IMG/VR virus record: IMGVR_UViG_3300035138_000084
Span: 1-27,181 of that record
Source: a virus
Direction: 5' to 3' (one strand)
DNA: 27,181 bases
Made by a program: the position numbers and the translations under genes. How positions within the stretch are numbered: the stretch's first letter is position 1; the number at the start of each line of letters is the position of its first letter. Below, one piece after another: positions 3,854 to 24,594 of this stretch. Under the pieces are notes generated by a model that was not told the origin of the DNA, did not search any database, and saw only the letters and a list, made by a program, of their open reading frames with translations.

Positions 3854-6259
3854 ATGGCTAGAAAACCATTAACAAAACGGGTCTGGCAAAATGCTGGTGC
3901 GCCTTCGGATGGCGGAAGCGGCACTCTTGCGGGTGACCCCTGGCTGGAAAAGGGCGACCTACTTATTGATATAACTAACGGCACACTTTACCAAAATACC
4001 AATACTCAGGCTTCGCCGACCTGGTCGCAGATAGTCGGTGGAACCGGGGCTTCCCTCGATACCGATGTGGGCAACATGGCAACCGATGGAACGGCTACGG
4101 CCAATGCTCTCGGCTCGGCTTCTACGGCGGCTCCTATCGACCACGTCCACAAGCTCGGCGACCATGACCATAGCGGAGCTACAAAGGGTGGGGCTATCGC
4201 TCTAGCGGCTCTCGGTGCCGGTTTCTTTACGGCTGATGCTACGGGCCGCGCTAAGTTCGCCAGTGACTTTTTCGATGCGACAAAGTTCGCTGACATCGTA
4301 GCTGACGATGCGATTACCAACGCTTTCCTAGATGCGAAGGTAGCCGATGACGCTTTCGATAATACCTTCCTACTGGCGGCTATTGATGCCGATGCCTTTG
4401 ATAATGCACTCTGCGACCTCATCTTTGCCAATAATGCTTTCGCTGCCGATGCTGCCAGCCGAGCTATGTTCGCTGACGGTATCTGGACGGGGGCAAAGCT
4501 GGCTGACGGTGCCTTGAGTGCCGATGCAACGGGCAGGGCCAAGATAGCTACCGACTTCTTTAATGCGGCTACCGTCCTCGATTTATTCGCCACTGACTCG
4601 ATTGACTCGACGGCTGCGGCGGCTATCATCGCCGATAATGCTATCCCGTCGAGCAAGGTCAACTGGTCTTACGGCGGAGCTGGAGACATTGTTACAATTG
4701 TTCCTGACGCTTCGGCTGATGCTGGTTCTGAATCAGGTGTAGCTCGAATCGACCATACCCATGCTATCGCCTGTGCTGCACCGAGTGCCGGTCTAGCGGC
4801 TGCGGATGCTGAAGGCTCAAGCAATTCATTTGCACGGGCTGACCATGTCCACAAGGCTACTCTGGCTAACGATGTCTATTTTGTCGGGCGCAACAATGCC
4901 GATGATGGCGACATCAACGTCTTTAAGGTCAATGCCTCCGACCAGATAGAACTTGGTGCTGACCTTTATCCCGGAGCACACAATATCATAATGACGGGCT
5001 ATGTCAGCATTGGCTCTACAGTGGCCGATAGCGGCGGGATACGCATACCCAATGATACGGTAGCCGTAGTCGCTCGAAACGCTGGGGATGATGGTAACGT
5101 AAACATGTGGAAAGTCAATGCCAGTGACCAGATAGAAGCGGGCGCTGACGTAAACATGAGCACCAACGGCCTAATCTCTACTGGTTACATCTCAGTCGGA
5201 GCTTCCCCTGCGGATGCTGGTGGTATCCGAATCCCCAACAACACCTATCTAGCCCTGGCTCGGAATCAGGCTGGTGGCGGCAATATCAATATGTGGAAGG
5301 TCAATGCTTCCGATGACCTTGAGGCTGGAGCAGATGTTGACCTCGGTTCTAATAACCTGTTCACTACCGGTTATGTTTCCATCGGTTCTACGGTAGCTGA
5401 CAGTGGCGGTATCAGGATACCCAATGATACCTATCTGGCGTTAGCTAGGAACAACGGGGATGATGGCAATGTTAGCCTTATAAAAGCCAATGCTTCAGAT
5501 TTGATAGAGTTCGGAGCGAGCCTAGCGGCTACTACCTTCGCCGGAACAGTAAGTATGGCTGACCAGGCTATCGACTTCACGACTGGATACATAGAGTTCG
5601 GAACCACGCCGGCGGCTTCAGGGGATATTCGCCAGGAAAATAATACGGTTCTCTGGGCGGCTCGGAACGCAGGAGATGACGGCGACATATCGGGCTGGAA
5701 GGTAAACGCCGAAGACGACTACGAAGCTGCGGCTGATGTCAACCTGGGAGGCAACAAGCTCTATGGTGGCACGGCGGCTAATGCCGACCTAGACCTTAAC
5801 GCCACCACCAACGGCACCGAGACGACCTCTTACATCATAGCCAGACAGATGCTCGATTGCACAGTAGGCATGGTAGCTACACTGGTGAAGGCCGGGGCGG
5901 TAGGCGATGCTGAAACTAACCAGACCGACATCAATGGCCTTATGGCTATCGATTCCACTAACCACCGCTTCTACTTCCGCTATGGCGATGCCTGGCACTA
6001 CTGTTCACAGGATGCCGGCTTTGCCTTCCCCGAATGGGAGCGAAACTGTCCTATCTGCGGAAATGCTATCGAGGTTGGTGATTCCGTAGTCGGCGTCATC
6101 GACTCCATTCAGGAGGACGGCGCGCGGCATGGTGTCTATTGTCATGCAAGCTGCGTGGGTGAATCGGTGACCGGTATCAATCTTCCCAACAAGGCAGAAG
6201 CTCCTAAAGGCAAAGGTGTTTCAGAGCCTAGCGCGCGGGAGAAGATGCTGGCTGCTTAA
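3854..6259 (+). CDS. Repeat-rich fibre/decoration-like virion protein with C-terminal Cys motif
   Basis: This 801-residue protein sits directly after the capsid gene, where decoration or head-fibre genes occur. Domains seen: residues ~20-62, a small beta unit (GDLLIDITNGTLYQN ... TWSQI) like that in the 60-aa gene at 7085; residues 97-108, DHVHKLGDHDHSG, a His-rich fibre motif repeated as IDHTH (~299) and ADHVH (~329); residues ~120-265, Ala/Asp-rich tandem units (ADATGRAKFASDFF, ADDAFDN, LADGALSADATGRAK); residues ~340-648, five ~62-residue repeats; residues ~650-720, a beta domain (NHRFYFRYGDAWHYC); residues 732-767, CPIC plus CHASC, a zinc-knuckle-like pair. The fold should be an elongated trimeric fibre, as in tail fibres using HxH metal sites. 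Head fibre or large decoration protein is inferred from position only; a displaced tail fibre is possible. ATG 3854 follows GGAGG. Confidence 0.7.
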   Translation: MARKPLTKRVWQNAGAPSDGGSGTLAGDPWLEKGDLLIDITNGTLYQNTNTQASPTWSQIVGGTGASLDTDVGNMATDGTATANALGSASTAAPIDHVHKLGDHDHSGATKGGAIALAALGAGFFTADATGRAKFASDFFDATKFADIVADDAITNAFLDAKVADDAFDNTFLLAAIDADAFDNALCDLIFANNAFAADAASRAMFADGIWTGAKLADGALSADATGRAKIATDFFNAATVLDLFATDSIDSTAAAAIIADNAIPSSKVNWSYGGAGDIVTIVPDASADAGSESGVARIDHTHAIACAAPSAGLAAADAEGSSNSFARADHVHKATLANDVYFVGRNNADDGDINVFKVNASDQIELGADLYPGAHNIIMTGYVSIGSTVADSGGIRIPNDTVAVVARNAGDDGNVNMWKVNASDQIEAGADVNMSTNGLISTGYISVGASPADAGGIRIPNNTYLALARNQAGGGNINMWKVNASDDLEAGADVDLGSNNLFTTGYVSIGSTVADSGGIRIPNDTYLALARNNGDDGNVSLIKANASDLIEFGASLAATTFAGTVSMADQAIDFTTGYIEFGTTPAASGDIRQENNTVLWAARNAGDDGDISGWKVNAEDDYEAAADVNLGGNKLYGGTAANADLDLNATTNGTETTSYIIARQMLDCTVGMVATLVKAGAVGDAETNQTDINGLMAIDSTNHRFYFRYGDAWHYCSQDAGFAFPEWERNCPICGNAIEVGDSVVGVIDSIQEDGARHGVYCHASCVGESVTGINLPNKAEAPKGKGVSEPSAREKMLAA
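4871..5797 (+). repeat. Five ~62-residue tandem repeats inside the fibre gene
   Basis: The coding repeats share a pattern of ARN-x(2)-DDGN-(I/V)-N-x-WKVNASD-x-(I/L)-E-x-GAD, then TTGY(V/I)S(I/V)G, then GGIRIPN(D/N)T. Copies 1-3 and the beginning of 4 are closest; copy 4 has about 10 extra residues before TGYIEFG, and copy 5 has decayed at its end (GGNKLYGG). DNA similarity is diverged, so copies are old. They probably build the shaft of the fibre. Confidence 0.85.
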
Positions 6260-10791: not shown

Positions 10792-12696
10792 ATGGCATTT
10801 GAAGTCTGGTCAATTCAGGGCACGATGACCCTCAAGGGCACGGCCCAAGTGGAATCGCAGCTAAAGAATATGTCACAGCGCGTGAGCGACTTTGGCTCTA
10901 AGCTGCAATCGGCCGGCCGCCAGATGCAGACGGCGGGGCAGCAGATGTCATTGTTTATCACTGCTCCCCTCTTAGCTGCGGCCGGGGCTTCGCTTAAATT
11001 CGCTGGCGACTTCGACAAAGCTATGCGCGCTGTTAATGTGATGCTGGGCGCTTCAACCAAAGAAGTCGAGCAGTATAAAGAGGAAATCTTAGCCCTGTCG
11101 AGTGAGACTGCCGTTAGTGCTACCGATATTACCAGTGCTTTCTATCAGATAGTTTCGGCTGGCTTTCGCGGTGCCGACGCCATAGACATATTAAGAGTGG
11201 CGATTAAGGGTGCTGTAGGTGGTGCGGCCGAAGCTCTCACTACTACCCAGGCGCTTACCAAAGCCATGAACATCTTTGCCCTCGAAGGTGTGGGCGGGGC
11301 CAGCCGCGCTATGGATGTTTTCTTTGGCATTGTGGATACTGGTCTGTTGACCTTCGAGGAAATGGCTAACTCATTCCCCCGCGCGGCTTCTAACGCTGCC
11401 GGTCTGGGAGTGTCTATTGAGGAAACGGGCGCGGCTCTCGGTACACTGACTAAGTTCACGGGCTCTACAGAGCAAGCGGCCACCGCTCTCGATGCTACTC
11501 TCCGTATGCTTATTTCACCCTCCGAGGCCATGCTTGCTTTATTCGGGGAATGGGGAGTCAGGACGGGCCCGGAAGCGATAGAAAAATTCGGCGGGTTGAC
11601 GGGCGTCTTAAAAGAACTCCAGTCGGTAGCTCAAGGCGATGTCACGGTAATCAAAGCTCTGTTTCAAAGTGACGAGGCTCTCAAAGGTGCATTACCCCTC
11701 TTAACCTATGCTTTCCAGGACTTCAATGCCGCCGTTCAGACCGTCACTGGTAGCACAGGCCGTGCCTCGGAAGCCTTTGACGAAATGGCTGAGGGCACAG
11801 GTTTTGCCCTCGACCAGGCAACCACCACTCTCAAAAATACTTTTATCTCTTTAGGCGATGCCCTGGCTACGTCGCTCATTCCTCTTATTCAGGAGCTTAT
11901 AGACTGGGTAGAGGACAACAAGGATTCCTTTATCGCTCTAGCTACCGGCTTGGCCGACACCGTTATCCCCTGGATTCAAAGCCTTGTCGGGTTGGTGCAG
12001 GGGGCTATCGACTGGTTTATCGGGCTGGATGACAGCGTTAAAAATGTGTTTCTGACTATGGGCGGGATAGCTGTCATTGCTGGCCCCATGCTCATGTATA
12101 TCGGCTTAATCACTCAGGGTATCGGCGGAATGATAACCATGATAGGCAAGTTTTCAGGCTTTATAATCTCCACCCTAATTCCTGCATTAGCCAAAGGCAT
12201 AGCCAGCTTTATAGCTTTCTTTACTTCTATGGGGCCTGCTGGATGGATAATCCTAGGCGGTATGGCCGTAGCTCTAGCGGCTGGGTTGGCTCTCTTTGCA
12301 AATTGGATAGGTGGTATGTCCACGCCAAAGCTGGGGGCTGGAGAAGGCAACATTTCGACTAATCTATTTACTGGTGGCGGTGAATCCGAGACGATGACCA
12401 CAGCCGAATACAACCGCCGCCTTGAGGAAGCCCACTCTAAAGGGGAACTTCTTAACTATCAAGGTGGTGGTCCTATCCCCGAAGATACCTTGCTTTACGG
12501 CTTATCTTCCCGAAGGGTTTATGCTAGGGCTCATGAAGGCGAAATGGTAACATCTGGTGGAGGTCAACCGATAAGCGTAACCATCAATATGCCTGGCCCC
12601 TATCATATCCGGGAAGAAGCCGACATAGATAAGCTGGCCCAAAGATTAGACGGGCGCTTGCGCTCTACTCTCAGAGCTTCGGGGGTGCCGGCATGA
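10792..12696 (+). CDS. Tape measure protein (TP901 family)
   Basis: The 634-residue protein sets tail length. The N-terminal ~60 residues are coiled coil (VESQLKNMSQRVSDFGSKLQ). Residues ~60-350 match the TP901 core: FDKAMRAVNVMLGAS, ETAVSATDITSAFYQIVSAG, AMNIFALEGVGGASRAMDVF, EMANSFPRAASNAAGLG, and EAFDEMAEGTGFALDQATTT. Residues ~420-520 hold several hydrophobic membrane-like segments, as expected for a protein released on DNA ejection. The end has the usual VYARAHEGEMV motif. About 0.15 nm per residue implies a tail near 95 nm, an inference from the family rule. It overlaps the next gene by 4 nt (ATGA). Confidence 0.93.
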   Translation: MAFEVWSIQGTMTLKGTAQVESQLKNMSQRVSDFGSKLQSAGRQMQTAGQQMSLFITAPLLAAAGASLKFAGDFDKAMRAVNVMLGASTKEVEQYKEEILALSSETAVSATDITSAFYQIVSAGFRGADAIDILRVAIKGAVGGAAEALTTTQALTKAMNIFALEGVGGASRAMDVFFGIVDTGLLTFEEMANSFPRAASNAAGLGVSIEETGAALGTLTKFTGSTEQAATALDATLRMLISPSEAMLALFGEWGVRTGPEAIEKFGGLTGVLKELQSVAQGDVTVIKALFQSDEALKGALPLLTYAFQDFNAAVQTVTGSTGRASEAFDEMAEGTGFALDQATTTLKNTFISLGDALATSLIPLIQELIDWVEDNKDSFIALATGLADTVIPWIQSLVGLVQGAIDWFIGLDDSVKNVFLTMGGIAVIAGPMLMYIGLITQGIGGMITMIGKFSGFIISTLIPALAKGIASFIAFFTSMGPAGWIILGGMAVALAAGLALFANWIGGMSTPKLGAGEGNISTNLFTGGGESETMTTAEYNRRLEEAHSKGELLNYQGGGPIPEDTLLYGLSSRRVYARAHEGEMVTSGGGQPISVTINMPGPYHIREEADIDKLAQRLDGRLRSTLRASGVPA

Positions 12697-13445
12697 GCTT
12701 CAGTATAAACTATAACGGCACTGATTTAAGCACCTATGGCTTGACGTTAAAGAGTGAAATGGATGCCCTGGCGGTAGCTCTCGATTATAATTCCGTTCAG
12801 TTGCCGGATAGGTCTTATGTCTCGCGTCCTCAATTACCACCTAAATCACTCAATTTTGAGGTGGTGGTCAAGGCTACTACTTCGGTACTGTTACAGACAT
12901 ACCTCGATGCAATCAGGCGGATATGCGCCCAGCTTACCGATAAGCCTCTTATCCTCGATGTTATAAGCGATAGATTTTGGGAGGCTCGGTTTACGGGTAT
13001 GTCCGGCCAGAGAATAGCCCCGTCTGTCTGGGAAGGCACTCTTAGCTTCGTGGCTGATGACCCTCTTTCCTATTCCACTACCCAGACTTCCAGCGACTTC
13101 TCCATAGATGCCGACCCGAAGACAATTACCGAATCCGTAGGGGGCACGTTCCGAGCCAAGCCCCTCTATACCTTGACGGCGGGCGAAGCTCTGAACGATA
13201 TAACCCTGCTGGTCAAAAATGTCACGCTTGATGAGGAGCTTTCATGGGAAGGCAGCTTATCGAATGGGGAACGCCTGACTATAGATGTGCCCTACTGGAT
13301 AGTCAAGGTAGAAGGCACGGCGGATATGGCTGATGTAAGCGGGGAGTTCCCGGGGTTGGTTGCAGGCCAGACCAACTATATCACGATTACAGGCTTCGGC
13401 TCGGCAGGAAGCCTTAATATACAGTATAGGGACACTTATTTATAG
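12693..13445 (+). CDS. Distal tail protein (Dit-like)
   Basis: The 250-residue product follows the tape measure and has the N-terminal Dit pattern: a short strand pair (SINYNGTDLSTYGLTL), then QLPDRSYVSRPQLPPKSLNF (hinge), a two-sheet ring domain (LQTYLDAIRRICAQLTDKPL, FWEARFTGMSG, VWEGTLSFVADDPLSYS), and a C-terminal galectin/lectin-like beta half. Dit forms the hexameric ring that joins tube and hub. Start is ATG 12693 in an ATGA overlap. Confidence 0.88.
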   Translation: MSFSINYNGTDLSTYGLTLKSEMDALAVALDYNSVQLPDRSYVSRPQLPPKSLNFEVVVKATTSVLLQTYLDAIRRICAQLTDKPLILDVISDRFWEARFTGMSGQRIAPSVWEGTLSFVADDPLSYSTTQTSSDFSIDADPKTITESVGGTFRAKPLYTLTAGEALNDITLLVKNVTLDEELSWEGSLSNGERLTIDVPYWIVKVEGTADMADVSGEFPGLVAGQTNYITITGFGSAGSLNIQYRDTYL

Positions 13446-14952: not shown

Positions 14953-17802
14953 ATGGCAGTTGTAATCGAGTACCCATCTAGTATCAATACCGACGGAGAC
15001 AAGCTCTCTGCCTGCTATTCCCTTATCGAGCAGCACCGCCTTGAGCATAACAAGGTGGCCGAGCAAGCCCGTAGCAACCCCGACAAATATATCAAGACGG
15101 GCAAGTTCAAAGCCTATGCTGAGAAGTCTAAGGCAGCACTCAAACAGCTTCTGGCCGAGCGCAATCAGATTATCGAGAATATCAGAACGGCCAACTACAC
15201 TGAGAAGGAATGGCAACAGGTAGGTAAACTTTCTGAGGAGGAATATGCCTCAATCCATAAATCTCTCTTTGGCAACAAGAGCGAGGAAAAGATTAAGCCT
15301 ACTAGGGCAACCTCCCCCCTGTTGGATGAACTGAGGGCTCAAAGCCTAGACGATAAGAAGGCTCTAGCCCCCGACCCTACTGAGGACTTTTCCGCCTATA
15401 CCGAATATGATGAAGGCAGTGACATCACTAAGACGGCTGACCGTATCACCTTTACTAATGCTGAAACTAGAGACGATACGTTCTACGTTTATGACGACAA
15501 GGGGGCCGGTCATTTTGATGGCGACTTTGAGCATCGGGAAAAAGTCCTTGAGAGTGTCCATAATACTGCTGCGGTGTTGGTAAGTTGGATTGTAGCCAAT
15601 GCAGTCGCTGACCTTTATGCCTTAATTGGGGCAAACGAGAGTTGCCTATCCTTCTTTCTTTATCATGATGCAGGCGGTTACTATATGCGCTTGCGAGAGC
15701 GGGACAGCGCAACATCTTATACCGATGAATACCAAGACTTTTCTCTCAGCACCGTTTATTATCTTCAGATAGAGAGGGACGAAAGCGTTGGCACTTATGG
15801 AACTATCTATGCTTATATCGCCACCAGTAACTACTATAGCGATGGCGGCTCATTAGTTGATACTCTGAGTGTCACGCTGCATACCAGCAAAAAAGATTAT
15901 AGATATGTTTATGGGTTATCAGGCTATGACTCAAGCAAGGGCATAGGATATACAGCTACAGGCTATGTTGAACTTCTTGATTTGCAGGAGGCGGTAGCCG
16001 AAACCTACACCAAGACCGTCTCAATAGACGCTTTACTCCAGACAACAGATACTAACCAGCCTACCATAGATGCCCTCTTAAGAGACACCGATAAAACCGA
16101 GACTGACCTAGACGCCCTAATCCGGGGAGAGGCAAGCCAGACCCCAACTCTGGACGGCCTGATAAAGGCTCTGGGCGTTTCAAAGACGGTGGCACTCGAT
16201 ACACTTATCCGCATATTGGGGCTTTCGGATACCGTTGATTTAGATACCCTGATACAAAGAACAGACCGTAACAAAATTCTCTATGAATACTATAATACTG
16301 GGGATAGTGGGAATACTGACCCGACCGGAACTCACTGGTGTGGGCAAACTTTCACCCCATCTACAAGCCACAAAATTACAAGTGTCAAATTAAAACTCTT
16401 TCGATATGGTTCTCCTGGCACTGTTACAGTAAGCATTAGAAACACCGTTCCTGATGGCGACTTTGGCGAGTATCTTCCTACGGGAGGAGATTTGTGTTCG
16501 GGTACAATAGATGGAGATACTTTAACCACTAGCGGTAGCGGGGAATGGTATGAAGTAACATTGGGAGCTGGATATAATCTAGTCGCTGGAACTGTATATG
16601 CCATAGTAGTGAGAGCGCCTAGTGGGAGTAACCCTAGCAACATTCTCTATTGGCGTCTTCATAGCCTAACCGCCTCCTATGATGGCGGGACTTTTGTATG
16701 TAGTGAAGATAGTGGTGAAAATTGGACAAGCGATGAAGGTTATGGGCATTTTGATTGTATGTTTGAGGAGTGGGGAGGGGGATTACAGATAGACGCCTTA
16801 ATTCAAAAAGCCGATAGCCAGGTTATAGATACCGATGCCTTGCTGAAAGCACTGGGTGATACAAAGATGATTGCTATCAGTGCCTTGCTTCGTGCCCTCG
16901 GCATATCAGAGACTATAGACATAGATGCTCTGGTAGGGAAGGCAGGCAGCAAGACCATAGACATAGACACCCTCATCGAAACGCTTGGTACTAAGACCCT
17001 TACCATTAGTGCCCTACTCCGTGCTCTCGGTGTAGATACAACGGTGGCAGTGGATGCCTTAATTCAGACCCTTGATACTGAAACAGCTACGATTGACGCT
17101 CTGCTACGAAAGCTGGGCGTGGATAAGACCGTAGCCCTCGACCTCTTATTGAGCGGTTCGGTCAGTGAGACGGTTGACCTTGACTTGCGTATTCAGGCTC
17201 TTGACTCTCAGGGCGTAGATTTAGACGCTTTACTCAAGGCCATAGATACGGCTACCGTTAGCCTGGATACCAGGATTCAGACACTTTCCGAAGTCTTTGT
17301 GGACATAGACGCCTACCTCAGAGCGATGTCCGTAATCGAGACAGTTGACTTGGATGCTCTATTACAAGCAACGGGCGTCTCGGTTACCGTCCTTCTCGAT
17401 GCCCTGATTTATGACCGGCTGGAGCAGACAATTGACGTTGACCTTTTGCTTCAGGGTGAGTCCACCGTTACTCCCCTGCTGGATTTACTCTTACAGGGAA
17501 CAGCTAGCACCACCGTAGCCCTGGACGCTATCATCGCTCAAGCCTATGCTGGCGCCCTGACCTTTCAGCTCGAAGTCCATAACACTGACGGCGACCTAGT
17601 AGCTATCTTAGAAAACGCCTTTGGAATTAGCTACGATGCTCGTATTAACCAACCGCATAAACTGACATTTTCTATTCCTGCTGCCGACTCAAAGCAGTCT
17701 GATATTACCCTGGCTAACGAAATCTGGCTGCGTAATCTCAAGACCAATACGGTAGTCAGGAAGTTTAGAATACAGGTTACCAGAGACGAGAGGAATGCTT
17801 AA
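14953..17802 (+). CDS. Multi-domain adhesin ending in the N-terminal part of a tail hub
   Basis: The 949-residue protein has a modular order. Residues ~10-115 are a charged coiled coil. Residues ~145-345 are a LamG/concanavalin-like beta sandwich (FYVYDDKGAGHFDGDF ... YYMRLRERDS ... YIATSNYYSDGGSL). From ~350 there are six LDALL repeats; residues ~438-611 are a jelly-roll-like insertion (TGTHWCGQTFTPSTSHKITS ... VYAIVVRAPSG); then about 18 more LDALL repeats to ~865. Residues ~866-949 (LEVHNTDGDLVAILENAFG ... NEIWLRNLKTNTVVRKF) match the first domain of siphophage hub/Tal proteins (TIGR01665/Gp37-like). The hub sequence stops at TRDERNA and continues in the next gene. Sugar or cell-surface binding is inferred from the domain types. 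TAA overlaps the next ATG by one base. Confidence 0.75.
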   Translation: MAVVIEYPSSINTDGDKLSACYSLIEQHRLEHNKVAEQARSNPDKYIKTGKFKAYAEKSKAALKQLLAERNQIIENIRTANYTEKEWQQVGKLSEEEYASIHKSLFGNKSEEKIKPTRATSPLLDELRAQSLDDKKALAPDPTEDFSAYTEYDEGSDITKTADRITFTNAETRDDTFYVYDDKGAGHFDGDFEHREKVLESVHNTAAVLVSWIVANAVADLYALIGANESCLSFFLYHDAGGYYMRLRERDSATSYTDEYQDFSLSTVYYLQIERDESVGTYGTIYAYIATSNYYSDGGSLVDTLSVTLHTSKKDYRYVYGLSGYDSSKGIGYTATGYVELLDLQEAVAETYTKTVSIDALLQTTDTNQPTIDALLRDTDKTETDLDALIRGEASQTPTLDGLIKALGVSKTVALDTLIRILGLSDTVDLDTLIQRTDRNKILYEYYNTGDSGNTDPTGTHWCGQTFTPSTSHKITSVKLKLFRYGSPGTVTVSIRNTVPDGDFGEYLPTGGDLCSGTIDGDTLTTSGSGEWYEVTLGAGYNLVAGTVYAIVVRAPSGSNPSNILYWRLHSLTASYDGGTFVCSEDSGENWTSDEGYGHFDCMFEEWGGGLQIDALIQKADSQVIDTDALLKALGDTKMIAISALLRALGISETIDIDALVGKAGSKTIDIDTLIETLGTKTLTISALLRALGVDTTVAVDALIQTLDTETATIDALLRKLGVDKTVALDLLLSGSVSETVDLDLRIQALDSQGVDLDALLKAIDTATVSLDTRIQTLSEVFVDIDAYLRAMSVIETVDLDALLQATGVSVTVLLDALIYDRLEQTIDVDLLLQGESTVTPLLDLLLQGTASTTVALDAIIAQAYAGALTFQLEVHNTDGDLVAILENAFGISYDARINQPHKLTFSIPAADSKQSDITLANEIWLRNLKTNTVVRKFRIQVTRDERNA
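16000..17548 (+). repeat. LDALL repeat array in the 949-aa protein, interrupted once
   Basis: About 24 coding repeats of 14-15 codons follow the pattern (T)V-x-(L/I)-D-A-L-(L/I)-(Q/K/R)-(A)-(L)-G-(V/I)-S-x. Six units lie at 16000-16266; a jelly-roll insertion fills ~16267-16787; about 18 units follow to ~17548. Adjacent copies differ strongly in DNA, so this is an old, diverged array and not a recent expansion. The periodicity fits a solenoid or stalk. Confidence 0.85.
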
Positions 17803-20327
17803 TGGCTACTGAGATACTTAGACCCAATGCTGCCGGGGATGTTACGGCTCTTTTCCCCTCTGGGGCCAGCTTTAATTGGGATTGCGTGAATGACGTCACG
17901 CCTGATGGTTTATCCACCTATGTTGTCTGTTCGATAGAAGGATACGACTTATATAATATTCCAAATACCAGTATACCAGACGGGGCAACCATAAATTCTG
18001 TCACTGTTTATGCCTATTGCAATGCAGATTATCCAGGGAATTATGCAAAGGTAAGAATTAAGACTGGGGGAACCGAATATTACTCTGCTTTATTATATGT
18101 GGCCCAAACTCCAAGCTGGACTTTAATTAGCGAAACATGGAATACCAACCCGAAATCTAGTTTAGCTTGGACAAAAAGCGACCTTAATGCACTACAGATA
18201 GGCGTCTATCTTATCTGGCATAATCAATATTACCCATATACTAGGTGTACCCAGGTCTATGTAGAGATTGACTATACCGGGCCTGAAACCTATACCAAGA
18301 CCGTAGATATAGATGCCCTACTCCAAACTACAGGCCAGTCTCAGCCCACAGTAGATGCTAAAGTAAAAGGAACCGGACAAAAGACCGTTGCCTTGAATGC
18401 CTATGTTGGTGAACCGTTTAATAAAGAAACCCAGCTAGACTCACTGCTTCGCCAGTCTATCTCCCAGGGAGTTAGCCTTGATACTTTATTGGGAAAAACC
18501 TCTATCTCCGATCAGCAGGTTGCCCTTGACACGATTATAGGCGAAACCGCTATTCCCGATATGTCGGTCCTTACCCGGGTAGAAGCTATGGATTATATGT
18601 CTCAGCTATCGGCCAGTATGGTTCAAGATTATGAGGCTCTAGGTTTACAGATGACCTATATCTCACAGACATGGAGTTACGGCGGTATCATCTATGCCTT
18701 CGATGCCGATGATGATTATTTTTATGCCGTTGGCGCCAGTGACCAAAAGATAAGGAAATTCAGCAGGGCTACTGGTGCCCAGGTAGCGGAGAGTGCAGCA
18801 CAGGATAACCCGATGTGGGCTATAATTGCAGATGGGGATTATCTTTACATTGGGCTTCAGCGCGATGCCCCGTATAACGACTATGTGGTAGGGAAATTCT
18901 TGAAATCTAACTTGAGTCTTTCGATTGTGAGTTCCGATTATGGTGCCGTTATCTATGCTCTCACAGCAGATGATACCCATATCTTCGCTGCTGGGGCTTT
19001 ATTTAATGGCAACACGAATGTAAAAAAGTACCTTAAAAGCAACCTGTCTTATGTAACCCAGGGAGGTTCTTCTGCTGCCGCTATCTGGGCGATGGACAAT
19101 GATGACACCCATATCTATGTTGCCACTTATGCAGCAGCACCATATGATTATTACATAGTCAGAAAGCTCTTAAAATCTGACCTGAGCTATGTTGCCCAGG
19201 GCGAAGAAGGAAGCAATCTAATCAGAGCCATCAAAGTTTCAGGGAGCTATATCTATGCAGGTGATGAGGGTGGTATCGTCAAAAAGTATGCAATTTCCGA
19301 TATGAGTACATCCGCTACAAGTGCCGCCTATGGCGGAGTAGTTTTAGCTGTCGACGTAAGCGAATCGCACGTCTATATCGCCGGGGCCACCACGAATAAA
19401 ATCTACCGTCTCTTTATCAATAATTTAACTAAGAGTGATGAGAGCCCATCTTATGGGGGGAATATCTGGGATTTATTTCTCGATGGCGATTACATCTATG
19501 CCGGCGGAGCTACCACTATAACCATCAGGAAATATCAGCTTTTTCAGACGGTTGACGAGGTCGTCGACGAACTCTTGGATTTCCCCATGCAGCCCCCGGC
19601 CATCACCAAAGGGGATATTTCCGATTTTGAAGATGAGGTCGTGCCTCTTAACATCGACGGGCAGACCTTACTCCAAGCCTTCCTTGCCTTACGCAAGCCC
19701 CTCGGCGGCTACATGGAAGTCAACAATGACCGCGAGTTAGACTGGTTCGCTTCCATCGGCGAAGACAAGGGGCAGCAAATCAGATACGGGAAAAACCTCT
19801 TAGGCATTTACCGTGAGATAGACTATACCAAACTCTTTAACCGCATCTATGTTTACGGCCGTGATGCAGACGGCAACGTGGTCAAGCTCTCCGATATTCA
19901 GGATGAGGACTATGTAGAAGATACGGACTCGCAGGATACCTACGGTGATGGTGTGAATCCCTATATCGGTGTCGGGGTATTCGTGGACTTCTCGATTCCC
20001 GGCGCGCAAGCATTGCTAGACTGGGCCAACGAACTCTTGGCGCAGTATAAAGACCCGCCTACTACTTATTCGATAAATGCTGTAGACCTATCTACGCAAC
20101 AGGGCTTCGACTTCGAGGCTTTGCAACTCGGCTCCACCGTGAAGGTGATTGACGAGGACTTGGGTATAGACATAGAGGCTACCGTTGTAAGGCTCTATTA
20201 TCCCGATTTATCCAAGCCCCATGAAATGCAGGTCGAGCTTGATAATGCTGTCAGGGATATAACCGATTCAATGGCTAATCTGGCGCAGGGTCAAAAGAAA
20301 CACGACATGCTGCTGGTGAATCCCTGA
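17802..20327 (+). CDS. Tail hub C-terminal part with lectin, repeat and seven-bladed propeller domains
   Basis: The 841-residue protein starts at ATG 17802 (TAATG). Residues 1-~160 look like a DNRLRE/CBM-type beta sandwich (SIPDGATINSVTVYAYC ... LNALQIGVYLIWHNQ). Residues ~162-250 are about six LDALL repeats matching those of the previous gene. Residues ~287-580 hold seven ~43-residue repeats of the pattern YGG-x-I-(Y/W)-A-x(6-9)-(Y/I)-(I/Y/F)-(Y/F)-A-x-G, a predicted seven-bladed beta-propeller. Residues ~580-841 are hub sequence (TVDEVVDELLDFPM, LLQAFLALRKPLGGYMEVNN, GQQIRYGKNLLGIYREIDYT, NRIYVYG, LGSTVKVIDEDLGIDIEATV). Hub N-terminal sequence is missing here and present at the end of the previous gene. 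It should sit at the tail tip and contact the host. Confidence 0.8.
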   Translation: MATEILRPNAAGDVTALFPSGASFNWDCVNDVTPDGLSTYVVCSIEGYDLYNIPNTSIPDGATINSVTVYAYCNADYPGNYAKVRIKTGGTEYYSALLYVAQTPSWTLISETWNTNPKSSLAWTKSDLNALQIGVYLIWHNQYYPYTRCTQVYVEIDYTGPETYTKTVDIDALLQTTGQSQPTVDAKVKGTGQKTVALNAYVGEPFNKETQLDSLLRQSISQGVSLDTLLGKTSISDQQVALDTIIGETAIPDMSVLTRVEAMDYMSQLSASMVQDYEALGLQMTYISQTWSYGGIIYAFDADDDYFYAVGASDQKIRKFSRATGAQVAESAAQDNPMWAIIADGDYLYIGLQRDAPYNDYVVGKFLKSNLSLSIVSSDYGAVIYALTADDTHIFAAGALFNGNTNVKKYLKSNLSYVTQGGSSAAAIWAMDNDDTHIYVATYAAAPYDYYIVRKLLKSDLSYVAQGEEGSNLIRAIKVSGSYIYAGDEGGIVKKYAISDMSTSATSAAYGGVVLAVDVSESHVYIAGATTNKIYRLFINNLTKSDESPSYGGNIWDLFLDGDYIYAGGATTITIRKYQLFQTVDEVVDELLDFPMQPPAITKGDISDFEDEVVPLNIDGQTLLQAFLALRKPLGGYMEVNNDRELDWFASIGEDKGQQIRYGKNLLGIYREIDYTKLFNRIYVYGRDADGNVVKLSDIQDEDYVEDTDSQDTYGDGVNPYIGVGVFVDFSIPGAQALLDWANELLAQYKDPPTTYSINAVDLSTQQGFDFEALQLGSTVKVIDEDLGIDIEATVVRLYYPDLSKPHEMQVELDNAVRDITDSMANLAQGQKKHDMLLVNP
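18285..18550 (+). repeat. Second LDALL repeat block
   Basis: About six 14-15-codon units lie at residues ~162-250 of the 841-aa protein. Their first 20 bases (18285-18304) match bases 16000-16019 of the previous gene at 19 of 20 positions, showing that the block was duplicated between the two genes. Later units diverge (VGEPFNKET, LLGKTSISD). Confidence 0.8.
18664..19542 (+). repeat. Seven ~43-residue propeller-blade repeats
   Basis: Units begin near SYGGIIYAFDAD, NPMWAIIADGD, YGAVIYALTADD, AAIWAMDNDD, NLIRAIKVSG, YGGVVLAVDVSE and YGGNIWDLFLDG. Each carries a (Y/I)-(F/I/Y)-A-x-G strand and a later K(I/V)-(R/K)-K-(F/Y/L) strand. The copy number of seven and the four-strand periodicity fit a closed beta-propeller. 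Units diverge in DNA. Confidence 0.8.
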
Positions 20328-22625: not shown

Positions 22626-22974
22626 GGGGGGTTGTTAAGGGGGGATTTCTGTTCGTTCCCCACTTATGAACAGGCAACCCCCAGCGATGTTTGAGTCCGG
22701 TCCATACACAGTGTTTCATTTTCCAACGCCGCTTGACTGCCGGCTCTCCTAATATTTCCCGCTCCCGTAGGATCCGGGGCTTATTCTGCTCATAGTAATT
22801 TCGGTTTTTCCCTTTACCTGCTCGGCTAGGCTTCGGCGGTATAGGAGTCAGCAGTAGCCCTACTTTTGAAAACTCGTCGAAGCGGTGGCCTCCCTGAAGA
22901 CACAACCATTCCCTATCATCCTTTAACCATTCCAGGTCGCCACCGCATTTAGGACAGGCTTTCAGTTTGAGCAT
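22612..22974 (-). CDS. Zinc-ribbon protein (120 aa)
   Basis: The product begins MLKLKACPKCGGDLEWLKDD and has CLQGGHRFDEF: CPKC plus Cys and His in a ribbon. The remainder is basic (PPKPSRAGKGKNRNYYEQNK, EPAVKRRWKMKHCVW). Basic zinc-ribbon proteins of this size are common in phages and mobile regions of anaerobic bacteria and probably bind nucleic acid. The start overlaps the methyltransferase stop by one base (TGATG). No function is known. Confidence 0.65.
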   Translation of the reverse strand: MLKLKACPKCGGDLEWLKDDREWLCLQGGHRFDEFSKVGLLLTPIPPKPSRAGKGKNRNYYEQNKPRILREREILGEPAVKRRWKMKHCVWTGLKHRWGLPVHKWGTNRNPPLTTPLKIR

Positions 22975-23657
22975 CAGATATTCAACTCCATAACTGATTG
23001 CCTACACCGATTAGCCGCAATCTCGCAATACTTCTCCTCTATCTCTATGCCTATGCACTTGCGGTTGAGATATTTGGCCGCTACTGCCGTTGTCCCGCTT
23101 CCTAAAAAGGGGTCGCAGACAGAATTATTGCTGAACCAATTGACTAACCAAGTCAAATGGTCTAATCTCCGCGGTGTAGGGTGCGGCATAGCTAGAGCAG
23201 CTTCTATGCGTTTGTGGTTATTTTTTGTATGGCGAAGAAATTGTTTGTCCGACCTAGTGGCTATACAACGGCCAGGCATCAGGAATCGCCCCTCTCGAGC
23301 TGCTGGGGGAATACCAAAGACATAGGCAATATCACCACCATAAAGTATTCGCCCTTTATAATGCGGCCGTGCATAATCAAGATTGCATATCCGCAGAAAT
23401 GGCCAGCTCGAGGGAACGCTAGATAGAAAACGGGGGTCACTATCACAACCAAGATGAACTACCAGCCTCTCAGCTCGAGGCAGGGCTAAACACATTTCAC
23501 GGAAAAGCTCCGATGGGTTCTCCTGCCCTTGCATTTTCACCGCGGCATTAGGCCAAACAGGGTCAGTTATTACCGTCTCGAGCTCGAGCTGTGGCAGTAT
23601 CTCCCGACAGTCTCCGTGATAGATGGTTACATAGTTGTCTTTGTAGTAGGGTTTCAA
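22974..23657 (-). CDS. DNA (adenine-N6 or cytosine-N4) methyltransferase
   Basis: The 227-residue enzyme has motif IV TDPVWPN (residues 31-37, a variant of (D/S)PP(Y/W)) and motif I CDPFLGSGTTAVAAKYLN (181-198), in the motif IV-before-I order of beta-type enzymes. PHPTPRRLDHLTWLVNWF fits the segment between them, and IGIEIEEKYCEIAANR the strand after motif I. It would transfer a methyl group from S-adenosylmethionine to DNA; the target site is unknown. The start is TTG 23657, overlapping the previous stop (TTGA) and preceded by GGGGAGG. No restriction enzyme is adjacent, so an anti-restriction or regulatory role is likely. Confidence 0.88.
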   Translation of the reverse strand: MKPYYKDNYVTIYHGDCREILPQLELETVITDPVWPNAAVKMQGQENPSELFREMCLALPRAERLVVHLGCDSDPRFLSSVPSSWPFLRICNLDYARPHYKGRILYGGDIAYVFGIPPAAREGRFLMPGRCIATRSDKQFLRHTKNNHKRIEAALAMPHPTPRRLDHLTWLVNWFSNNSVCDPFLGSGTTAVAAKYLNRKCIGIEIEEKYCEIAANRCRQSVMELNI

Positions 23658-24010
23658 AGCAGCCTCCCCTGTCTATTATCACTCCAGTATGCCCCCACAT
23701 TATCAAGCACCTTTCTTTTCCTGTGAGATAGATGTTCTATGCGGGTCTGTAACGATAGGAGATGCTCCTCGGCCTCTTTATGACTGGTAGCTAAGAAGTA
23801 ACCGGCGGGCGGTTCCGAGGTCGAAACTATAGGCAAGCCGTTTTCTATAAGCTCCTCCAGCATCGCCCTGACCTGCCTATTCCTCTGGCCTACCATCCGC
23901 GCTAAAGACTCACCGGTAATGGCCGAATCCCTCCCCTGGTGTCTCTCAAGGATACTACGGAGTTCCTGTTTCAAGTCTGTTTTAGTAAGCCTGGTTAGAG
24001 TAACCATCAT
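23654..24010 (-). CDS. Winged-helix DNA-binding regulator-like protein
   Basis: The 118-residue product has a predicted HTH (ITGESLARMVGQRNRQVRAM) and wing (LEELIENGLPIVST ... PPAGYFLATS), then a charged helix (KEAEEHLLSLQTRIEHLSHR). This is the layout of small phage winged-helix proteins related to the BirA/HTH_11 type. It may regulate this operon or work with the origin region. The first of two adjacent ATGs is chosen because AGGAG lies 6 nt before it. It overlaps the methyltransferase start by 4 nt. Confidence 0.68.
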   Translation of the reverse strand: MMVTLTRLTKTDLKQELRSILERHQGRDSAITGESLARMVGQRNRQVRAMLEELIENGLPIVSTSEPPAGYFLATSHKEAEEHLLSLQTRIEHLSHRKRKVLDNVGAYWSDNRQGRLL

Positions 24011-24024
24011 TCACCTCTCCTTAG

Positions 24025-24594
24025 TCAGTGGGGACGGGGACACAGATTTAATTCCCATCTTATTTTGTCAGCTTTACTTTGGCTTGGTTGTCTATCACGA
24101 GTTTTATTCCATGGTCTATATGCGACCCTTGTCTTTGCTTCCCAGCCTGCCGCTTTATAGATAATTCCTTTGTGAACTTCGGTGTCTTGGTATGATATTA
24201 GCCGCTTGATATTGGGCAGTCGTTTCTTGATAAGTAAAACCATAATACGGAGCATCCTTGAGGCGGTATTCTTTGGGGCTTCGGGGGCTATCGTCATTCG
24301 TCTTAATTCTAAAGTAGTGTCCATATCAAAGGCTTGGTTTACTGGCGATGACCATATTCCCACAGCGAACCACTCACTATTGAATATTGCCCCAAAGCAG
24401 ATATAATGCCTATTCCGTGTAACATTGCTCCAATCTATTTCGGGAAGCCGACTATGCCATTTCTCATTTAGGATGCAAGCTGCCCTAACGCCGATTTCTT
24501 TAATCTCAAACTGGAGCGGTGAGGTCGGGATTGAACCGCCGCCTTTTATCTGGAATGATAACTGTTCTTCCACTAAACTATCACCGCCTGCCAT
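24025..24594 (-). CDS. Mom-like GNAT-fold DNA modification protein
   Basis: The core (residues ~29-165) has patterns seen in phage Mu Mom-like proteins: FEIKEIGVRAACILNEKWHS, FGAIFNSEWFAVGIWSSPV, LELRRMTIAPEAPKNTASRM, then LISYQDTEVHKGIIYKAAGW. Mu Mom changes adenine in phage DNA to a carbamoylmethyl form and so blocks host restriction; many relatives are uncharacterised, so the chemistry here is inferred. The N-terminal 28 codons (bases 24511-24594) coincide with a tRNA-Gly-like sequence on the same strand. The ATG at 24594 has only AGAGGGA one base away, and no in-frame ATG, GTG or TTG occurs between the tRNA end and the core, so the true start is uncertain. It lies 14 nt before the regulator gene. 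Confidence 0.65.
   Translation of the reverse strand: MAGGDSLVEEQLSFQIKGGGSIPTSPLQFEIKEIGVRAACILNEKWHSRLPEIDWSNVTRNRHYICFGAIFNSEWFAVGIWSSPVNQAFDMDTTLELRRMTIAPEAPKNTASRMLRIMVLLIKKRLPNIKRLISYQDTEVHKGIIYKAAGWEAKTRVAYRPWNKTRDRQPSQSKADKIRWELNLCPRPH
24512..24587 (-). tRNA. tRNA-Gly(UCC)-like gene, degenerate
   Basis: On the minus strand a 76-nt cloverleaf can be drawn with a perfect 7-bp acceptor (GCGGTGA/TCACCGC), discriminator T and encoded CCA. It has TA at 8-9 and a Gly-type D arm (GTTTAGTGGAAGAAC). The anticodon stem TTATC/GATAA leaves a 6-nt loop ATTCCA with anticodon UCC; the T arm is GGCGG-TTCAATC-CCG(A)CC with one bulged A. The short anticodon loop and the T-stem bulge are unusual, so it may be a divergent phage tRNA or a decaying one. 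It overlaps the 5' end of the Mom-like frame. Confidence 0.65.

Follow-up and report, generated by a model that had tools for sequence, protein, structure and literature searches.

Hub domain I (HDI) belongs to the core of phage tails, of tailocins and of the spikes of type VI secretion. All four hub domains reside on one protein in T5, T4, 80alpha and T6SS, and in lambda HDI is carried on gpL and HDII-IV on gpJ, with a similar arrangement in RcGTA (gp13+gp15) (PMC10721106). T1 (gp36+gp33) and Chi share the lambda arrangement (PMC11945409), and in lambda itself HDI and HDIV form a pseudo-hexameric ring that sits below the distal tail protein and extends the tail tube (PMC11101478). Common to lambda, RcGTA, T1 and Chi are the spread of four hub domains over two proteins, whose genes may have others between them, and a first chain that holds the entire HDI followed by an iron-sulfur domain (PMC10721106, PMC11101478, PMC11945409). 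Two further points of comparison are the one-chain Tal proteins of the PF06605 family (Listeria gp18 3gs9, 80alpha, monocin FtbL, NF5 Tal), which have HDI on the same chain, and the Tal of the Oenococcus phage Vinitor162, also one chain, with a carbohydrate-binding domain N-terminal to the hub (PMC8540738).

Here we describe tail hubs encoded by two genes, A and B, in uncultured phages. Their likeness to lambda, RcGTA, T1 and Chi ends at the first chain, which here lacks the last HDI strand, stops directly with no iron-sulfur domain, and forms the end of an adhesin-like protein that in some genomes occurs as two such chains. Chain B and its unsplit relatives belong to the PF06605 family, although B, unlike the family, does not carry HDI whole; the Vinitor162 Tal resembles our locus in placing a carbohydrate-binding domain before the hub and differs in being a single unbroken chain. 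Two-chain hubs are already known, and what is new is the cut inside HDI, the fusion to an adhesin and the duplicated A chains. A cut inside domain I was not found in the open-licence literature on hubs, an absence that counts as weak evidence.

Results

The window, by which we mean the whole stretch of DNA analysed, is a 27,181-base IMG/VR virus record from an uncultured phage, and all of our evidence on split hubs comes from metagenomic contigs. Head, connector, tail-tube, tape-measure and Dit genes precede A, and closer to the locus the order is TMP (10792-12696), Dit, three small genes, A and then B, placing the hub downstream of tape measure and Dit as is usual for the PF06605 type. The first group of features comprises Dit and chain A:

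12693-13445, plus strand: Dit (distal tail protein), expected to form the ring that partners the hub (phrog_33, 1.8e-22)
14953-17802, plus strand: chain A, a 949-aa adhesin-like protein with the first part of HDI at its C-terminal end (open reading frame, L003 alignment, HMM)
16303-16743, plus strand: choice-of-anchor R domain, A residues 451-597 (NCBIfam NF041539, 32.3 bits against a cutoff of 30)
16795-17547, plus strand: repeats of about 14 residues, TVDLDALLQALG-like, in A (motif spacing)
17557-17799, plus strand: A residues 869-949, hub domain I minus the last strand (L003 identity, leave-one-out HMM, phrog_4311)

Elsewhere in the window, an 801-aa protein encoded at 3854-6259, between the major head protein and connector genes, has no convincing Pfam or PHROGs family match. 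Adjoining DNA methyltransferase and Mom-like DNA modification genes lie on the minus strand (22974-24594), oriented against the structural genes.

Chain A thus reads as an N-terminal region, the choice-of-anchor R domain, the repeats, of which additional copies lie at residues 355-442, and finally 81 residues of hub domain I. A DNA tandem array underlying the repeats was looked for and none was found. A domain-I HMM built without the window matched A 869-947 at E 6e-35, while the Pfam model of domain I (PF18994) gave a weak match below its cutoff (E 0.05); in a six-frame HMM search of the window domain I was located on A only and not on the polypeptide that bears PF06605. The four-cysteine iron-sulfur domain sought C-terminal to HDI is absent from A, residues 869-949 contain no cysteine at all, and the chain stops two residues past the DER of the hairpin. 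Window A shares residues 2-350 with the A protein of L016 (55% match) and residues 443-947 with that of L017 (41%), which marks A as a conserved gene of mosaic make-up. Between pairs of A halves dN was 0.13-0.37 with dS saturated or >1.7, and the A half is under purifying selection.

Chain B carries the remaining hub and begins with an addition of its own:

17802-20327, plus strand: chain B, an 841-aa protein (PF06605, L003 alignment)
17802-18560, plus strand: N-terminal addition, B residues 1-253, a jelly-roll-like stretch and TVDIDALLQ repeats (alignment)
18561-18641, plus strand: B residues 254-280, MSVLTRVEAMDYMSQL..., the last HDI strand and the link after it (alignment to L003 and other B starts)
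18654-19541, plus strand: beta-propeller inserted in the hub, B about 285-580 (model, PDB beta-propeller matches, alignment)
19545-20324, plus strand: remaining hub domains, B about 582-841 (PF06605, TIGR01665, alignment)

PF06605 matches B at 8.6e-30 (104.7 bits against a curated cutoff of 31.3), and NCBIfam TIGR01665 likewise identifies it as a tail hub. Residues 1-253 are missing from L003 and were modelled at low confidence. Met254 falls at the position where other B chains begin (for example MSKTLVEVEALDL in L050), which suggests that the addition was likely made to a B that was already split. The propeller fold is backed by the model, which is confident over this stretch, and by beta-propeller matches in the PDB. 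The AlphaFold2 model of B alone was confident for the propeller only and low in the hub part, and is neutral on the split-hub reading. A TYTKTVDIDALLQTT module is common to both chains, the DNA at 16000-16048 (A) and at 18285-18333 (the N-terminal addition of B) being 80% identical.

The closest relative that we found, L003, has the whole hub in a single 658-aa gene. A 869-949 aligns with its residues 3-83 (48% identity, E 1e-22) and B 256-838 with its residues 86-655 (43% identity, E 7e-151), so the halves lie adjacent on one hub, without overlap and with almost nothing missing. Independent profiles agree: A matches positions 5-69 of phrog_4311 and 14-73 of phrog_22322, and B positions 183-356 and 173-351 respectively. 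An earlier note on this DNA, made from the sequence alone, had taken the end of A for the start of a hub and the last ~260 residues of B for the rest, and had named a match of both halves to the same part of the hub as the outcome that would speak against it; L003 places them on different parts. The reading of A is confirmed, and that of B is right in kind and too narrow in extent, as B ~254-280 is also hub and includes the last HDI strand. The note had also put adhesin and propeller domains at the break. The adhesin-like part of A and residues 1-253 of B do flank it; the propeller lies further along the chain and, being present in unsplit L003 as well as in window B, is independent of the break.

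Where the cut falls within the fold was judged from the homologues L005, L063 and L003. The AlphaFold2 model of the unsplit L005 hub, mostly at about 90 pLDDT, is a classical hub with structural matches to monocin FtbL (Z 22.7), NF5 Tal, 80alpha, Mu gp44, T4 gp27 and VgrG, among them structures of the PF06605 one-chain family, and the break maps to the loop between its strands 66-75 and 84-90. In unsplit L063 the Pfam domain I extends to residue 98, about eight residues beyond the break point. On this strand layout and domain extent B keeps the last HDI strand, and the cut is placed within HDI, at a beta-hairpin, and not between domains. Set against the lambda type, with HDI on a separate first chain, A has HDI minus its last strand and the last strand is on B.

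Relatives were gathered by scans of viral contigs (four with protein alignments, two with single sequences) and one scan of genome contigs, and were sorted into those with domain I and hub core in one frame and those without. Besides the window, 20 contigs are cut at the same beta-hairpin:

Split contigs, first ten: L004, L014-L018, L025, L026, L028, L029
Split contigs, remainder: L031, L034, L037, L038, L040, L042, L043, L044, L046, L050

In L004 the A piece forms a gene of its own (80 aa), in many phages it is the end of repeat or adhesin-like proteins of 186-949 aa, and three genomes (L046, L042 and L044) have two A-type proteins for one B. N-terminal additions on B occur in the window, L025, L029 and L034. 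Across the split relatives A and B together make up a hub that lacks no more than one or two residues, A typically ending in KFRLxxxxDxRx-stop and B typically starting with M-(I)xTEIETLDLxSQL.

Some loci show further arrangements. At L046:1778-6004 two consecutive repeat proteins of ~700 aa, each with a domain-I piece at its end, precede the single B gene. At L033:5387-9483 the hub is apparently in three pieces, i.e., with a second cut: one is the domain-I piece, one a middle chain that stops close to hub position 184, and the third bears hub positions 190-240 at its end, behind adhesin-like domains; a second B-like paralogue lies downstream. Many loci (L079-L126) hold distant one-chain hubs of ~840-860 aa with ~395 residues before domain I, an unbroken N-terminal extension.

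In the window the two open reading frames, of 949 and 841 aa, meet as the earlier note described them:

17788-17794, plus strand: Shine-Dalgarno-like GAGAGGA for B, within the A coding sequence (AGGA 7 nt before the ATG)
17800-17804, plus strand: TAATG, the stop of A overlapping the start of B

The 21 A/B junctions comprise 13 overlaps of 4 nt (ATGA type), three of one (TAATG), one of 23 nt and four non-overlapping pairs (L034, L043, L042 and L044) whose genes are 13-648 nt apart, with another gene between A and B in L042 and L044. The Shine-Dalgarno-like stretch of B often lies within the codons just before A's end. The A/B pair is two genes, and from these signals stop/start-coupled expression is most likely.

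It could be argued that some rounds of translation yield a single A-B hub polypeptide by programmed -1 frameshifting, as the B frame is open into A's end in 17 of the 21 cases and is the -1 frame in nearly all, but ATGA and TAATG overlaps produce that frame by themselves. We consider it very improbable. None of the 21 junctions, the window included, has the slippery heptamer that was sought and that the earlier note had likewise not seen; every B has its own start codon; just 7 nt of overlap is left in L014; and in the four pairs whose genes do not overlap frameshifting is excluded. Less probable still is a single gene broken by a sequencing or assembly error, the possibility that the note had raised against itself. 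The window is indeed a single metagenomic contig, but 20 others have the identical cut, complete with start codons and stop/start overlaps, and the A part is under purifying selection. Frameshift and sequencing error were both rejected on the recurrent cut, the missing heptamer and this selection.

On a tree of 42 hub cores, a sample biased because the searches started from split members, split and whole states need about 5-7 changes, and the window pairs with whole-hub L003 (support 100/99). A single split clade is rejected at p 0.03, a weak result with some branches long. Splits and re-fusions have probably both occurred, as read from this tree, and even close relatives differ in the split, the hub of the sister L003 being one gene.

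Two of the 20 other split loci are in MAGs labelled Dehalococcoidia and Chloroflexota. A Chloroflexota host is a lead only, as these may be phage contigs binned with host. Apart from the genome of L037, a search of 400 Chloroflexota genomes gave one weak match, which makes prophages of this kind rare in that phylum. In cultured phages tblastn revealed no split hub, as judged from annotated protein names; hub-part identities were about 22-33%, the domain-I piece was weak (E 0.04 or worse), and where both matched they were neighbouring under one annotated protein name.

Discussion

The split hub is genuine, recurs across contigs and is very likely functional. The coding parts of A and B are complementary, the same cut is present in many phages, the junctions have no frameshift signal, and the A part is under selection. 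The earlier note had proposed one hub from two separately translated chains without a described example. The complementary parts and the cut in 20 other contigs bear out the two chains, from which we infer their assembly, and the claim of novelty needs narrowing, as two-chain hubs occur in lambda, RcGTA, T1 and Chi, with the cut at another place.

Very probably, A and B form a two-polypeptide hub in which B completes the HDI barrel of A and anchors the adhesin. A would be an adhesin or fibre-like protein whose C-terminal ~80 residues are HDI minus the last strand, and B, translated by coupled re-initiation at the overlapping stop/start, would hold that strand and the other hub domains. Beneath the Dit ring, A and B may assemble non-covalently, three copies of each, the first hub strand of B closing the barrel of A across the natural beta-hairpin break. 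The closed barrel would lock A into the trimeric hub and so anchor the adhesin in the tail tip, with the adhesin-like part, presumed to bind the host, projecting from the tip. By analogy with the lambda HDI/HDIV ring, the domain-I piece of A and B may together form the ring that continues the tube.

The domain-I piece of A might instead serve as an anchor in its own right, docked elsewhere (e.g., on the Dit ring), leaving B as a shortened hub. This would suit the genomes that have two A-type proteins per B or a gene between A and B, and the finding of the A piece alone. We think it unlikely, as A and B cover domain I end to end, with hardly a residue missing or repeated, and B chains have kept the last domain-I strand, which would have no obvious role without the other strands.

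A more tentative extension of the two-polypeptide hub is that it acts as an open socket, into which any protein ending in a domain-I piece clips by strand complementation; we regard this as possible and lean slightly against it. Were it true, the genomes with two A proteins would assemble tips of mixed type, in which one hub bears two adhesins, and adhesins would be exchangeable with the hub gene untouched.

Split-hub phages will be mis-annotated wherever a search expects the hub gene to be complete. A recurrent natural cut inside HDI would show that the barrel tolerates strand complementation. The presence of the A piece on adhesin-like proteins suggests a way to plug host-binding fibres into the tail, and fusion to a domain-I piece would give phages a genetic route to attach and exchange adhesins.
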